Below are positions 35,347-57,933 of a stretch of DNA of 64,000 nucleotides, piece after piece. Made by a program: the position numbers and the translations under genes. The DNA comes from Polychytrium aggregatum (taxonomy: Eukaryota; Chytridiomycota; Chytridiomycetes; Polychytriales): the NCBI RefSeq assembly GCF_025602895.1, contig NW_026516216.1:620001-684000 (forward strand). The letters are read 5' to 3'. Under the pieces are notes generated by a model. That model was not told the origin of the DNA and searched no databases. It saw nothing but the letters and a program-made list of their open reading frames with translations. The stretch's first letter is position 1. The number at the start of each line of letters is the position of its first letter.

Positions 35347-35529
35347 TTTGTAGTGGCGATAGAAAGTGGTTAGGAGAGAGGTGTTGGTTTGTTGCGGCAA
35401 TCAAGACCCAAACGTTGAAGGCAAAAGTGTGTCCTCGGGAACCCGTGGGAATCAGGGGCAAAGTCAGAAGGGGAGATGGCGATCTGAGCACTGGTGGCTA
35501 CTTGACGACTCGACTGCTCGAGCTATTTA

Positions 35530-35555
35530 CACTTTATTCAGAAAAAAACGGGACA
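35530..35555 (+). repeat. Left terminal inverted repeat (Fanzor side)
   Basis: 26 bp next to TA. 22 of 26 positions match the corresponding end of the copy at 57786-57811. Confidence 0.85.
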
Positions 35556-35640
35556 ATATAGCCGTTTCCATGAACATGTAGTATGTGCTGTGCTTGCGTC
35601 AAGCAAAGCCACAAGAAATAAAACAGATCACTTTGGCAGC
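35556..35640 (-). ncRNA. Candidate Fanzor guide-RNA (fRNA) 3' region
   Basis: The non-coding gap between the Fanzor stop (35628) and the element end contains a perfect 6-bp hairpin, TGCTTG-CGT-CAAGCA (35591-35605). In studied TnpB and Fanzor loci the guide scaffold overlaps the 3' end of the ORF and continues to the transposon end, with the guide taken from the flank. Here that would place the guide beyond 35530, going toward lower coordinates. This is inferred from position and structure only. Confidence 0.35.
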
Positions 35641-38000
35641 CTCCGAGTGAAGACCACCGGTCGCTCTCCGATCTCCACAATCGACCTGCATACTGTGATC
35701 ATGTTGCGCGCCGCATTGACGTCGCGATTCCACACTGTCCGGCAGCTGGGATTCTTGCAGCTCCTGACAAAGTGGGAATTCGCAACACTGGGCGCATCGA
35801 GTCCTTCCAACCGAACTGGCTCCAGGCACTTGGAGCACACTTGCGAGGTGTTGAACTCGTTCGTCGAGGCCACCTTGACGCTTCCATGATGGTGATTGGG
35901 ACGGCGTCGGTGGTGCTCGAATTGCTCAAAGTACCGAGCGAACCGCTGCCTCCGAGGGCTGGATGCATAGCCCTTGCCCTGTCGCCATGACGCATTGCCA
36001 AAGGCGATCACCACATCGGTCCGTATCGGGGCGTGCTTCAGGACGGCCTTGCACATCCTGTCGACGGCCACTTGGCGCCTCTTGTGGCCTGTGAAGCGAT
36101 GGTGACGGGCCTTCTTGCCAAGGTGGAAGTCGAGCTGCACTCGCAGCTCCGGTCGCAGGACATGGGTGAGATGGACCTTGAAAGCCTCCGAGGACGACAC
36201 CTTGGGCGAGGGGGTGGTCGACATCCAGGTCTCGATGCTGAGTCGATACTTCATGATATTGTGCCACTTGGTGTTGGACGTATGGCCACACATGTGCTGG
36301 TAGTGACCATTGGAGAATGAGACCACCTCGTCTTGGTGACCCGGTGCTTGGATGACCGCCGTGAAGATGGAGCCGACTCCAGGATCGATGCCAATCCAAG
36401 TGGTGCGGTTGGGGTCTGGGTCGCCGATGTGGGCCTGGATGCGCTGCTCGGAAGTCGGAGGAGGCTCGATGGTCTCGGTGTGATCGGTTCGAGGCAGAAA
36501 CTTGACGAGACCGATGGTGCATCCAATGCCATCGGTGCTGATCTCGTAGTTGAACAGCTTCTTGTCCCTGACCCGCTCTTGGAAGAGGGAACTACGCAGC
36601 TTGAAGCAACTGCGCCAGAGACGATCCTGGTTGTTGATGCCGTCATCACCTTGTTCCTTGAGCATGTCCCTGGTGAGTCCAAGGCGTTTCTTTGGACCAA
36701 GGAGCTCCCAGAGAGTGACCGTGTCGATCTTGACATACTTGGCCTTGGTGGTGCACAGAGGAACCATCGTGCACACGGCTGGAGGAGTGTCGAGAGCGAG
36801 CTGCTTGAGTGCCCACTTGAGCCTGGATGCCAGCTTGTTGATCTTGGACTTGGTGGTGCCGAGCTCAGACTTGGCCTTGGTGAACCTCTTGTCGTCGGAG
36901 GGAATGCCTTGGGTAGTGAGCTCGTCTAGCTTGACCTGGCGCTGCAGCTCGGTGACTCGGAGGGCGGGCATGTCACAGTCGATCCACTTGTGGACATTGT
37001 CGACCATCTTGTCTCGGGCGAGGATTCTCACATGGTGTGAGAGGCGGTAGAGGGTCCGGAAGCGGTCCTGGTCGTTGCTGTACCGAAACTCGTCCAGGAT
37101 GTGACCAAAGTCGGGGTAGAGGAACTCGAGATCGGCCTTGGGTGGAGTCTGCCCTGGTTTCTCGAAGAGCTCGAGACAGGCCTCGATGGCTTCGTGCTTG
37201 TGCTTGTTGGCAGGGAAGACGGCAGCGCAGAAGCGGCGAAGGAGTCGCCAGTAGGCCAGGTCGAGGTGGGTGGTGCAGTTGGTAGCATAGGCATTGACAG
37301 CCAGTGTGAGAAGCTGACTGTGAGCACCATCAGGCAGACAAGGGGCCGGAGGCAGGTCTGCATGTCGAGTGGTCTGGTAGTCGCGAAAGGAAGCGACCAG
37401 ATGCTCGTTGTATTTCTCGTTGTCCCCGGTCGGGGAGAGGGCATCGGCCTCGACAATCGTGAAGCATTGGCGGATGAATGCAGGGGTGGACTTGGAGATG
37501 ACGGGGACGGGAAGATCCTGCTCGATGCACCTCAGGATGTGCAGGTTGAGCAGCCTGGATGCCTCGAACTGGATCTGGGTCATGGCCTCGACGGTGGCCT
37601 GGATCTTGTCGCGGAGAGCGGGATTGAGACAACAGCCATCCATCGTCTGCTTGAAGCAGCTGAACTGAGGGGCGGATGACCTTCCATCCACGAGTGGGAC
37701 GACAGAACTCTTGAGGGGGTGATATTTTGGACACTTGCTAGTGTTGCAGCGTTCGTGATCGGTGCCATCGCACTGGCGACATCGCTTGCCGGTACTCGAG
37801 GAAGTAGATGGACCAGGCTCGGTGGGATCGACATCCATTGGATCTGCAGAAGCAGTGGTGGTGAGCGACGGAGCAACAGACGACCAAGCATGCGTGGGGT
37901 CAGAATACGAACCAGAGACAGGCTCCGACTGTGACTTGGCTTTCTTGGGCCTGGGTGGCCGAGGCTGGCCATCACCGGCACCCTTACGCTTCGGAGGCAT
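35628..38000 (-). CDS. Fanzor RNA-guided nuclease (eukaryotic TnpB homologue)
   Basis: An uninterrupted single exon of 790 aa. A basic, nuclear-localisation-like N-terminus (MPPKRKGAGDG...RPKKAK) is followed by a Cys cluster (RCRQCDGTDHERCNTSKC, about 73-90) and a helical region. The RuvC fold starts at about 533: WIGIDPGVGSIF (Asp539), VVIAFGNASW (664-673), NEFNTSQVCSKC (Glu715, Cys722, Cys725), then Cys748 and Cys753, and WNRDVNAARN (Asp760). The spacing from Asp539 to the TS-x-x-C4 zinc finger and the RD fits the published Fanzor signature. The Glu of NEFNTS is a plausible alternative catalytic Glu in the rearranged Fanzor site (inference). TnpB and Fanzor proteins cut DNA guided by an RNA from the element end. 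It lies 251 nt downstream of the transposase stop in the same orientation. Confidence 0.9.
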   Translation of the reverse strand: MPPKRKGAGDGQPRPPRPKKAKSQSEPVSGSYSDPTHAWSSVAPSLTTTASADPMDVDPTEPGPSTSSSTGKRCRQCDGTDHERCNTSKCPKYHPLKSSVVPLVDGRSSAPQFSCFKQTMDGCCLNPALRDKIQATVEAMTQIQFEASRLLNLHILRCIEQDLPVPVISKSTPAFIRQCFTIVEADALSPTGDNEKYNEHLVASFRDYQTTRHADLPPAPCLPDGAHSQLLTLAVNAYATNCTTHLDLAYWRLLRRFCAAVFPANKHKHEAIEACLELFEKPGQTPPKADLEFLYPDFGHILDEFRYSNDQDRFRTLYRLSHHVRILARDKMVDNVHKWIDCDMPALRVTELQRQVKLDELTTQGIPSDDKRFTKAKSELGTTKSKINKLASRLKWALKQLALDTPPAVCTMVPLCTTKAKYVKIDTVTLWELLGPKKRLGLTRDMLKEQGDDGINNQDRLWRSCFKLRSSLFQERVRDKKLFNYEISTDGIGCTIGLVKFLPRTDHTETIEPPPTSEQRIQAHIGDPDPNRTTWIGIDPGVGSIFTAVIQAPGHQDEVVSFSNGHYQHMCGHTSNTKWHNIMKYRLSIETWMSTTPSPKVSSSEAFKVHLTHVLRPELRVQLDFHLGKKARHHRFTGHKRRQVAVDRMCKAVLKHAPIRTDVVIAFGNASWRQGKGYASSPRRQRFARYFEQFEHHRRRPNHHHGSVKVASTNEFNTSQVCSKCLEPVRLEGLDAPSVANSHFVRSCKNPSCRTVWNRDVNAARNMITVCRSIVEIGERPVVFTRRLPK

Positions 38001-38251
38001 GGGGGCAGAGAATGCTGGATGTCTGCCAGTGGTACTGGTCAGAGCAGAGACTTTTTTTATCGTACAATGGCGCGATGATCAGATCAAGGCGAGATGAGGG
38101 AAGAAAGCAGCAGGACGAAGGTGTGGCATTTATACCCGAGAGCAGGAACCCGTCTGCGCGGGCTGGTTGGGGGGGTGACCCTGTTCAAAAATCGCCGAGA
38201 GGTTCAAGCCAGGGATTTGAGCGTGAAAATGGCGGCGTGATTGGAGGGAAC

Positions 38252-39184
38252 TCAACCCCAGAAGCGCATCGCTCGCTCAATCAGCCGTGGGAAGACATCT
38301 GGAAGCACCCTCCGAACGGCAGACTCAAACAGGGTCACCATTCCGACTCTGAACCCCTCGGACGCATTCAGCGCTGCTGCCTTCCTGTACTGATGCTTCA
38401 CAATCCCAAAGAAGTTCTCGATGGGATTGAAGTCGGGTGAAGCAGGTGGGGTGAAGATCACTGACCATCCTCGGCGATCGATGCAGTCCAGGACAGCCAT
38501 TGTCTTGTGCATGCTGACATTGTCCATCACAATCACAGAGTCGTCTGGGAAGCTCGCTCGCTCAAAGAACTCGACCATCGAGTGTGTCTTGAATGATGTG
38601 GGGATGTACATGCGATGCAGCACACCAGAGTGGTTGATTGCAAATGCAGCCGAGACAGACTTGTGCTTCATGTGATTGCGCTAGCGAAGCGAAGCACCCT
38701 TCGGTGAGTATCCGTAGAGAGGGAAAATGGATCTCCTGATCCCTGTCTCATCGACAAAAACGAATCGCCGCGGGTCGATGGAGCGGACCCGGTCCCTGAA
38801 CTGTGCCACTCGCTCATCCAGTCGCTTGGACTTGTAGAGGTGTGTTGCCCTCTTGTGTGAGAGACCTGCTCGGTGGATGGCAGTGTGGCAGAGTGAGAGT
38901 GATACTTTCCTCTGGAGGATGGACTCGAGCTTGCACCGCAACACAGGACCAGTCTGGAACGGGTCCTGTTCAATCAGGGTGCGAATGACTGGACATGCCT
39001 GCTCGAAGAAAGTGGATCTGCGAGCTGGGACCCGGGATGGGTCATCCAGCTTGCATCCTCGGTGCCATCGATGGATGGTGCTCTTGGACACACTGAATAT
39101 GGAGGCGACCTTACGCAGGCTATGGATGAGGGCGTAGCATCGCAATGCGGCGGTGCGAAAGTCGGATGTGTGGCGAATGGTCAT
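38252..39184 (-). pseudogene. Tc1/mariner (IS630-like) DD34E transposase with one in-frame TAG
   Basis: One continuous frame of 310 codons with a single TAG at 38681-38683 (codon 168). The N-terminal helix-turn-helix (LRKVASIFSVSKSTIHRWHR) is followed by the catalytic FVFVDETGIRR (Asp145), then after the stop VIVMDNVSMHKT (Asp221) and SPDFNPIENFFG (Glu256). There are 34 residues between the second Asp and the Glu, a DD34E triad typical of Tc1-like transposases. No splice signals surround the TAG, so it probably inactivates this copy unless read through or repaired by another source. The transposase would act on the 26-bp terminal repeats at both ends of the element. Confidence 0.85.
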
Positions 39185-39242
39185 GGCCAGCGCGCGATAA
39201 CATTGGGTAGCAAAATATTCGATGAATGGTCAAAATCCCGGG

Positions 39243-39268
39243 TGTCCCGTTTTTTATTGGATTGCCCG
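39243..39268 (-). repeat. Right terminal inverted repeat (transposase side)
   Basis: Inverted relative to 35530-35555. The inner 13 bases are identical and TA follows at 39269-39270. Confidence 0.85.
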
Positions 39269-39270
39269 TA

Positions 39271-40105
39271 AGGTCATCCCCAGTGCAGCCACGCCGTGAT
39301 CATTAGAAGCAACGAACACTTCTATGAAGGCGCAGTGGGGTGATCACCGAGTGCACGAGCTCTCTGCGCGGAAACTCTGGAAGGACGATGGGGAACCTTG
39401 CGATGGCGTGGGTATCCGTCTGCCGTGCACGCAACTCGGGATTGGGTAGAACCGTCCGATTCCGGTGATACCACGGAGAGAAAGTCTGTTAGTGTGACAC
39501 AATCGCTTCTCTGGGGTGATCGGCTCCGCGGGTCGCTTCACCCGGTTCTCAAAACGAAACAGCACAGCACAGTTGCGCGCATCCACCGCCCTCCGCAACA
39601 CGCCCGAGGCCGGCATTGCCGCTGTGCGCTGGTGTGGGCGCCCTCTATTCGCTCGAGGCCGCCTCCATCGTCGCAGTAAGCGTCAAACGTCGCAGCAAGA
39701 GTCGAACGCCGCTCGTGAGAATCGATATCATGTATTCGAGACAAGGTTGTCCAAAAAGTGTTTGCCATCCGCAACTGACAGCGGCGGCGGGAGCAGCCAA
39801 AGTAAAGCAACGAGCTCTTTCCCGTCAGTGAGCACCACTCCGAAGCTCGGAAGGAGTATCGATGCGGGCGTCTGACTGGGAAGGAGGCACAGCGGACATC
39901 AAGATCCTCTGTTTGTGGCGCTCGTCTGGCACCGCTTGTGTTGTCCAATGTCGCTTGACTCCTTGGCGCCGACTGGCGGGGCGCTGTGGGCTCGACGTTC
40001 TTGGTGCCATACGGAGCGAACTTGCTTTCGACGAGTCTGCGGGCTCCATCGATCCTCGGCTCGGATGTGCAGCCATCTCCCGCATCAGAATTCATCCCGC
40101 GGCAT
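39271..40105. other. Gene-free region right of the Fanzor element
   Basis: Contains overlapping Arg/Ser-rich frames on both strands, none with a recognisable domain or splicing pattern. It includes the 3' flank of the EST1/SMG7 gene. Confidence 0.5.
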
Positions 40106-56222: not shown

Positions 56223-57735
56223 GGAATGCAGCACAAGGCGGCGCGTTTTTTCCTTTGGCCGGCGCGTCTTGTGTAGCGCCGCGGGGCTCTCTGCGCTGCG
56301 CAGCAACAGTGTCTGTGTGTGCGCCAGCTGCAGCGCAGTCAGGTGGGGAGCACGGGACCGACACTGTGGCACCGGCGGATGCTGTTCTGTGTCCGCGCGC
56401 CGTCGCCACCCAGTTCATGTGACGGGCGCCACCGCTATTTTGGGCCCGAGGCGAGAGCCCCAGCGAGAACAGCGAGATGCCGGGCGAGAGCGGGAGAGAG
56501 ATCAAGCCCAATCCTGGATCGCAAGCATACCACCATCAATTTTTTCCGGCCCCTCGCGGCTGCTCATCTCGGTCACCCGAAAGTCACGTTGGATGTGGCG
56601 CAGCAAAAGTTGGAATCCGGCCATGGTCGGTTGACGGCATTTGGTATCGTCTTGAGCCGATTGACGGTGGTGGTGGGCGATTGGTGTGGAGGAATGACCA
56701 ATTGTATCATTGTTGGAAGCTCCACTCCGATTGCGGACAAGAACCACCACCGTCTGAATCTCTCTGGTTGGAAACCTAGTCAAGCGTGGCTGTGTGTCAG
56801 CGAGATGACATGATCGTTTGGCTATCAGGCAAGACTCACCTTGACAAGATGTCTTCCCACGACTGATTGAGCGAGCGATGCGTTTCTGGATCTGAATCAA
56901 GGACGCCACTGTGCAGTATCTCTGCCAGCCCAAAATGCGCTGGTTTTGAGGAGATTCTTTCTTCCCCAAGGGCAGAACCAGCCATCGTCGCTATTTTCAC
57001 GCCAGATGGCTCCCCGCAAGAGAAAGACACCACCCAGGCGACCAAGTGGATCCAGAGCACCCACAATATACTTGGTCTGCAGGAATGGATGAGCACCACA
57101 CCAAGTCCCAAGATCCCTGGGTTGGATCCCTTCCTGCGATACATTCGCCATGTGTTCGATGGAGACATGCTGGAGAAACAGCTGTACTTCAGCCTGACCC
57201 GGCGACGGCGATTCAAGCGACTCGATCTCCACAGCAAGCGACAGCGCACCGTCCACGAGATGTGCAAGCGAGTCATTGACCAGGCACCAAGGGAGACCGA
57301 GGTGGTGATTGCCTTTGGGAATGCATCCTGGAAACAAGGGAAGGGATACACATCCAGTCCCAGGAGACTCAGGTTTGTCAAGTACTTTGAGCAGTTCCAC
57401 CACCACCGGAGACGACCACCAGACCGATCCATCTCCAAGATCCATGTGTGCTCGGTGAACGAGTTCAACACATCCCAGGTGTGCTCACATTGCCGGGAAG
57501 CCAAGCGACTCGAGAAGGTCGAGCATCTTGATGTCGAGAAACCACACTTTGTCCGGAGCTGTGCAAGCTGTCATACGCTGTGGGATCGAGACATCAATGC
57601 AGCCAGGAACATGATCTCGGTATGCCAGTCGATCATCGTCACAGGAGATCGACCGGGTGTATTCAAGACTGTGCTTCTCAAACCAACCAAAACCACTCGA
57701 TTGCCAACGAAGACAGGAGTGCAATGCCATGGCCT

Positions 57736-57765
57736 GCCCGCTGGGCCTACAGTCAGTCAGCGGGC
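57736..57765 (+). ncRNA. Candidate fRNA hairpin in the degenerate element
   Basis: GCCCGCTG (57736-57743) and CAGCGGGC (57758-57765) form a perfect 8-bp stem with a 14-nt loop, 20 bp inside the terminal repeat and just after the region aligning with the Fanzor C-terminus. A guide-RNA scaffold would be expected in that position. Evidence is structural only. Confidence 0.3.
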
Positions 57766-57785
57766 TTCAGAAGCCAGGAAGGATC

Positions 57786-57811
57786 TGTCCCGTTTCTTTC
57801 TGGATAGACTG
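57786..57811 (-). repeat. Terminal inverted repeat of the degenerate Fanzor element
   Basis: 22 of 26 positions match the reverse complement of 35530-35555. TA follows at 57812-57813. Confidence 0.85.
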
Positions 57812-57813
57812 TA

Positions 57814-57933
57814 AGTATCTTGTTCCTTGTGCATTTTGACAGTGGATGCCGGGTCGCCCATATTCTGGGCAGTCCACTTCGGGGTTGCCATCCCTCTTGG
57901 GATGGTCGATGGGAGGTGTTTGACTCTCTTGCA

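Follow-up and report, generated by a model that had tools for sequence, protein, structure and literature searches.

A Tc1/mariner transposon family of Polychytrium aggregatum that carries a Fanzor1 gene and shows a one-sided TTA bias at its insertion sites

The element and its ends

The stretch of DNA analysed here (the window; 64,000 nucleotides of the chytrid Polychytrium aggregatum, assembly GCF_025602895.1, contig NW_026516216.1, positions 620,001 to 684,000) contains at positions 35528–39270 a Tc1/mariner (IS630-superfamily) transposon with a Fanzor1 nuclease gene; its genes lie on the minus strand. A preliminary description made from the letters of the window had proposed an element of Tc1/mariner type, flanked by TA and with defined ends, that holds a Fanzor gene, and this observation is confirmed: the boundaries, which include both TA dinucleotides, are common to 37 near-full copies within one base. 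One TA (35528–35529) stands at the 3′, Fanzor-proximal end and the other (39269–39270) at the transposase-proximal end. Just inside them are 26 bp ends at 35530–35555 (CACTTTATTCAGAAAAAAACGGGACA) and 39243–39268, imperfect inverted repeats of the sort expected of Tc1/mariner elements; as had been claimed, their inner 13 bases are identical (AAAAAACGGGACA), and in the window copy 18 of 26 bases agree overall. The outer 13 bp differ between the two ends, which are thus asymmetric.

The P. aggregatum genome (64.7 Mb in 418 contigs) was searched with each end plus its TA as a 28-base pattern, at up to 2 mismatches, as the preliminary description had advised; there are 349 matches for the transposase-side end, 260 for the Fanzor-side end and none for the reversed control patterns. 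Pairing 100 listed matches of each end gave 53 elements, 43 of them 3177–3790 bp long and ten 283–1114 bp long; 47 of the 100 listed right ends found no partner, presumably because the matches listed are a part of the total and cover exact ends only. The ten short copies carry the same ends without the Fanzor gene. The terminal repeats do therefore occur without that gene, which the preliminary description would have counted against the element, but these copies are internal-deletion derivatives of it. A whole-element search returned 52 rows, with 37 of 1311 candidates scored, and is a sample and not a total. Thirty-seven near-full copies (L001–L037) were fetched, the window copy among them; the others are 95.5–99% identical to it, several have internal deletions, and all begin and end at the terminal bases of the window element or one base inside.

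The family is new, but its kind is already known. Fanzor1 genes in Tc/mariner elements with TA duplications are in Bao and Jurka (2013; PMC3627910), so the suggestion that a transposase-plus-Fanzor element is itself a novelty does not hold. In that paper PGv-1 and PUl-1 have a transposase, other relatives that share the repeats carry the Fanzor alone, and chimeric Fanzor elements are described that share a 5′ transposase half and have different 3′ halves. SPu-1, PUl-1 and PGv-1 resemble the window family: they encode a protein of Fanzor1 type and have terminal repeats, a TA on either side and, in some members, a transposase; set against them by description, the window family is separate, with a 790-amino-acid Fanzor and hundreds of ends.

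The Fanzor and transposase genes

The Fanzor gene (35628–38000, minus strand) is open over 790 amino acids in the window copy. Its protein scores 36.3 bits against PF07282 (TNB/OrfB zinc ribbon; cut-off 26.3) and 25.2 bits against the NCBIfam guided_TnpB family, under the cut-off of 100. The RuvC and zinc-finger motifs that the preliminary description had called complete are all in place on the minus strand: D539 (36384–36386) within IDPG (residues 538–541), E715 (35856–35858; assigned by position, not structure), a C4 zinc finger (residues 722–753; 35742–35837) and D760 (35721–35723). They follow the Fanzor1 pattern D-X(125-275)-[TS][TS]XX-C4 zinc finger-X-RD with D539, T718-S719 (178 residues separate D539 from T718), CSKC, CKNPSC and RD760, and combine DPG with a repositioned glutamate seven residues ahead of C722; the position of E715 is the same in four aligned Fanzors of the window family (family A) and two sister families, B and C, discussed below. 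D539 is present in all 37 near-full copies and D760 in 36. From this motif and the non-IS607 transposon around it, the protein appears to belong to Fanzor1. A search of the PDB with the single sequence gave no match at 1e-3, and the best matches of a profile search were weak (LaTranC, E 0.094; SpuFz1, E 0.11). SpuFz1 of Spizellomyces punctatus (PMC10432273, PMC11423790) is alike in its RuvC D-E-D order and in a zinc finger ahead of the last D, but the profile match to its chain is very weak. We link SpuFz1, on our own reading, to an element of SPu-1 type, flanked by TA, in the same fungus. Two viral-contig scans and a phage search found no relatives.

The transposase gene (38252–39184, minus strand; 310 codons) has catalytic residues D145, D221 and, after 34 intervening residues, E256, so the DD34E transposase of the preliminary description stands as to type; its gene in the window copy is, however, broken by an in-frame TAG at codon 168 (38681–38683, minus strand), as read from the sequence. 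The C-terminal piece matches DDE_3 (60.3 bits) and the N-terminal piece falls under the cut-off of HTH_23; the intact transposase of copy L004 scores 125.3 bits as an IS630 transposase (cut-off 100) and 85.2 bits for DDE_3. The frame is full-length and uninterrupted in 18 of the 37 copies. Some copies have transposase deletions in common and lie at different sites (L032, L033 and L034; L036 and L037; L034 and L035), and must therefore have moved in trans or exchanged sequence.

A one-sided bias in the flanks

Linkage between variants is at the shuffled level past 50 bp among 30 non-allelic copies of L001–L037, and because of this the haplotypes of individual copies were distrusted and family-level frequencies and flanks alone were used. 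Flanks should be little affected by such scrambling, although some are themselves repeats. In the orientation of the Fanzor gene, T precedes the 5′ TA at 102 of 106 distinct sites (A at two, G at two). These sites are distinct by their last 7 bases and comprise 86 from fetched copies plus those of distinct text among the matches listed for 5′ ends (97 of 100 rows; C96, C127 and C140 lack the TA and were dropped). The first 30 distinct sites have T in 28 and A in two, with no bias to the mirror base on the other side; 37 further distinct long sites have T without exception; and the fetched set, with 18 more ends added, has T 83, A 2 and G 1 in 86 distinct flanks out of 105. T stands ahead of TA in 13.5% of 2320 cases in the window (P 4e-68 against 83 of 86). 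At position −2, A or T occurs in 69 of 86 flanks against a background of 48%; at position +1, A occurs in 9 of 57, against 13.5%. As +1 A is at background level, the bias is one-sided.

The copy in the window, with CTTA (39269–39272, minus strand), has the usual T at −1 and a minority C at −2 of the family motif (A/T)TTA. This motif may be read as the predicted target-adjacent motif (TAM) of the Fanzor. SpuFz1, whose TAM was determined experimentally as CATA (PMC10432273), is alike in that its motif also ends in TA, and unlike in the bases before it. The one-sided bias among copies is new to us, and no paper on the insertion-site preference of Fanzor elements was found in the literature searched, which takes in few subscription papers.

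Two observations on individual flanks may be recorded. Copies L003 and L036 share a 3′ flank and not a 5′ flank, and each has TTTTA ahead of the element. GGGACA occurs within 60 bp in 7 of 56 distinct 3′ flanks (L007, L008, L025, L037, L042, L095 and L105), and its reverse, TGTCCC, in 1 of 56; the 5′ flanks have them in 4 and 2 of 74. The pattern in the 3′ flanks is one that related element ends would give.

A sister family with nearly the same transposase

Family C was recognized in three copies (L172, L173 and L174, the last with a frame-broken Fanzor). It is 96.4–96.5% identical in DNA to family A over element positions 1–1014, a span that ends no more than a few bases from the transposase stop. 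Past that stop the profile for L172 shows an aligned identity of about 45%, parts of the Fanzor open reading frame reaching 68–80%; the cassette boundary lies at the transposase stop. The two transposases agree at 301 of 310 residues (97%) and the two Fanzors at 315 of 758 (42%), and the family A Fanzor aligns with three Fanzors of families B and C at 42–45% identity. The 5′ end of family C is one base off the usual A form, and its 3′ end is of another type.

The flanks of family C follow a looser rule. Among the matches listed, the 12 distinct sites with a CAGCC end, the family C 5′ end type, have T 7, A 2, C 2 and G 1. Six sites tied to a C-type 3′ end have T in three: L172, L173 and L174, tied by sequence, have G, C and C, and C63 (second copy), C68 and C72, tied by distance to a listed 3′ end and paired by hand from the matches listed, each have T (C72 carries a CAGTC end). 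Left out of the count were L178/L179 (one site, hybrid 5′ end) and L175–L177 (no TA). Against family A, Fisher's test gives P 0.0005 for the twelve sites and 0.003 for the six. Because T precedes 102 of 106 sites in A and 7 of 12 in C despite 97% identical transposases, the Fanzor module is favoured over the transposase as the source of the strict T rule; the Fanzor cassette is the better explanation and not the only one, as the C sample is small and still T-enriched.

The candidate guide end

The reRNAs of Fanzor1 extend about 15 nt beyond the target-site duplication, and their scaffold is predicted to include the terminal repeat and the duplication (PMC10711439). By analogy, the putative omega-RNA (reRNA) scaffold of the window copy would be 35528–35700 (minus strand), made of the 3′ end of the Fanzor frame and the 3′ noncoding end, where a terminal hairpin may run through the repeat, and the predicted guide would be the 3′ flank after the TA (35508–35527, minus strand). 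Several features agree with the earlier idea that the guide is read from the end nearest the Fanzor stop. The 3′ noncoding end has the lowest diversity of five regions (2.17% against 2.82–4.13%), and at least the last 168 bp is retained in all ten short copies. In both 3′-end types the 3′ terminal repeat has a potential pairing partner in an upstream arm; of the distinct ends compared, 23 of 32 of the B/C type and 8 of 13 of the A type show a pairing that no more than 5% of shuffled arms equal.

Proposed guided retention and its alternatives

We propose that this Tc1/mariner family carries a Fanzor1 RNA-guided nuclease and that guided retention leaves the one-sided TTA bias, and we put the probability of this at about 0.65. 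The DD34E transposase would excise the element and insert it at TA, and the Fanzor would bind an RNA transcribed from the 3′ end of the element into the flank, so that the guide would be the sequence just past the insertion. After excision, or on an empty allele, the restored site would be (A/T)TTA followed by the guide; the Fanzor would recognize and cut it, and repair off the occupied copy would restore the element. Insertions with no T ahead of the TA would be unprotected and lost, leaving the bias. A similar retention of transposons by guided cutting was reportedly described by Meers and colleagues in 2023 for TnpB of IS200/IS605 and IS607. There, too, an empty donor site would be cut and the element copied back, but those systems are bacterial and have other transposases, and for the window family such a mechanism is conjectural.

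Several results weigh against guided retention, and some of them would suit a preference of the transposase itself, in which an asymmetric transpososome captures TTA in one orientation and the Fanzor is not involved. Family C, whose transposase is almost the same, has T more often than background at its CAGCC-end sites (7 of 12, P 0.0003), and five distinct sites with the CAGTC variant (family mostly unassigned) have T 4 and A 1, so part of the bias may be that of the shared transposase. The short copies have T at 9 of 9 distinct sites, which fits guided retention only with Fanzor supplied in trans. The two ends of the element are asymmetric, and A and C differ in their 3′ ends besides the Fanzor. 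The difference between A and C in how strictly T is kept speaks the other way, as does the fact that the TA, itself symmetric, has no corresponding bias on its other side, and we think a transposase preference unlikely, though well worth keeping in mind. As to the RNA, 50 bp windows as conserved as the 3′ end are found elsewhere in the element, and folding single sequences gives weak structures (z −1.9 for 173 nt and −1.1 for 113 nt).

The Fanzor might also be a passenger that influences neither where copies insert nor whether they persist. It has premature stops in 7 of the 37 copies and a frameshift in one, the frame being open in 29, and substitutions constrain it no better than the transposase: the ratio of nonsynonymous to synonymous polymorphism (pN/pS) is 0.41 against 0.40 (allele-weighted, 0.40 against 0.25) and diversity 4.13% against 2.82%, so that the two are alike or the transposase is more constrained. 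On the other hand, frame-disrupting indels are nearly missing from it: its 2373 bp hold 3 indel events, against 18 over the 933 bp of the transposase and 12 over the 251 bp of the spacer. With pN/pS at 0.41, and with an open Fanzor frame in four of six copies (L032–L037) whose transposase deletions recur in a copy at another site (L034 and L036 have one nonsense change each), a mere passenger is improbable.

Finally, the duplication might not be TA, or the extra T might belong to the element, the true ends lying elsewhere. No empty site was found in the genome for 57 joined flanks (40 of 1090, 33 of 33 and 40 of 63 candidates scored for 30 flanks, and 40 of 274 for 27), a further point against guided retention, and T at −1, judged by eye, varies little more than bases inside the ends. 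Twenty-three of the first 30 sites are present at two or more places. Junction-crossing rows at L008, L025, L037, L070 and L079 appear for the occupied copy itself too, because those 3′ flanks resemble the 5′ end of the element, and any partner places they have carry the element as well. With no empty site, the alignment called for in the preliminary description could not be had, and we therefore infer a TA target-site duplication from occupied sites: of 30 sites picked without regard to a TA, 28 have one at each end. Moreover, no site of 57 shares 4 or more bases past the TA in either of two registers tested, and the A/T preference at −2 is graded, as in a target site; other ends are thus very improbable.

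More tentatively, and in our estimate a little short of an even chance, the Fanzor would decide where a eukaryotic transposon survives: hundreds of Tc1/mariner copies would persist almost only at flanks offering the TAM of their Fanzor, the nuclease would act at each locus as a guided retention or homing factor, and a cassette swap behind a near-constant transposase would change the rule. How Fanzors serve their transposons was, according to a 2023 paper (PMC10711439), little understood. The flank rule is unusually clear and testable, and hints at how a Fanzor may help its element persist in a genome. This genome offers one transposase with two Fanzor cassettes, hundreds of clean-ended copies, short copies from which the Fanzor gene is missing, and a flank motif from which a TAM is predicted; a comparison of the sites used in the presence and in the absence of Fanzor would show whether the nuclease shapes where a eukaryotic transposon lies.

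Variation among copies

Seven sites occur as pairs on two contigs, with elements differing by 0.03–3.2% and flanks 99.6–100% identical save one flank each of L006/L018 (94.6%) and L010/L013 (95.6%). In six pairs examined, most differences are at variants found in other copies. Ectopic gene conversion was not accepted from these pairs, as linkage is at the shuffled level past 50 bp; the scrambling is probably an assembly artefact of short-read polishing. Hypermutation like repeat-induced point mutation was rejected as the source of the differences: C-to-T changes are common, but the effect of context is mild (0.42–0.67 T alleles per site in four contexts). Two sites, each present on two contigs with matching flanks, hold elements of different size, 3666 and 1114 bp (L037, L152) and 3618 and about 312 bp (L062/L097, L153), and a third, by its 5′ flank, holds 3743 and 3418 bp (L055, L080). 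Such size swaps are not explained by short-read polishing.

Family B in the window

A second, internally deleted Fanzor-family copy, of family B, lies at 56531–57813 on the plus strand and holds a transposase remnant (56847–56889), the C-terminal part of a Fanzor (57032–57682) and the 3′ end (57786–57813). The pattern of this 3′ end, which family C shares, matches the genome 278 times when up to 1 mismatch is allowed. Family B was rejected for testing the flank rule, there being no terminal repeat at its shared 5′ boundary. Directly after 15 of 41 B/C-type 3′ ends (L108–L147 and the window) stands a repeat, AGTATCTTG...TTCGACAGTGGATGCC (57814–57880 in the window), as if B belonged to, or sat in, a larger repeat. 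At L148 (C2:42900-47720) a C-type 3′ end adjoins an open frame of 1188 codons on the opposite strand, which we take to resemble a retrotransposon polyprotein.

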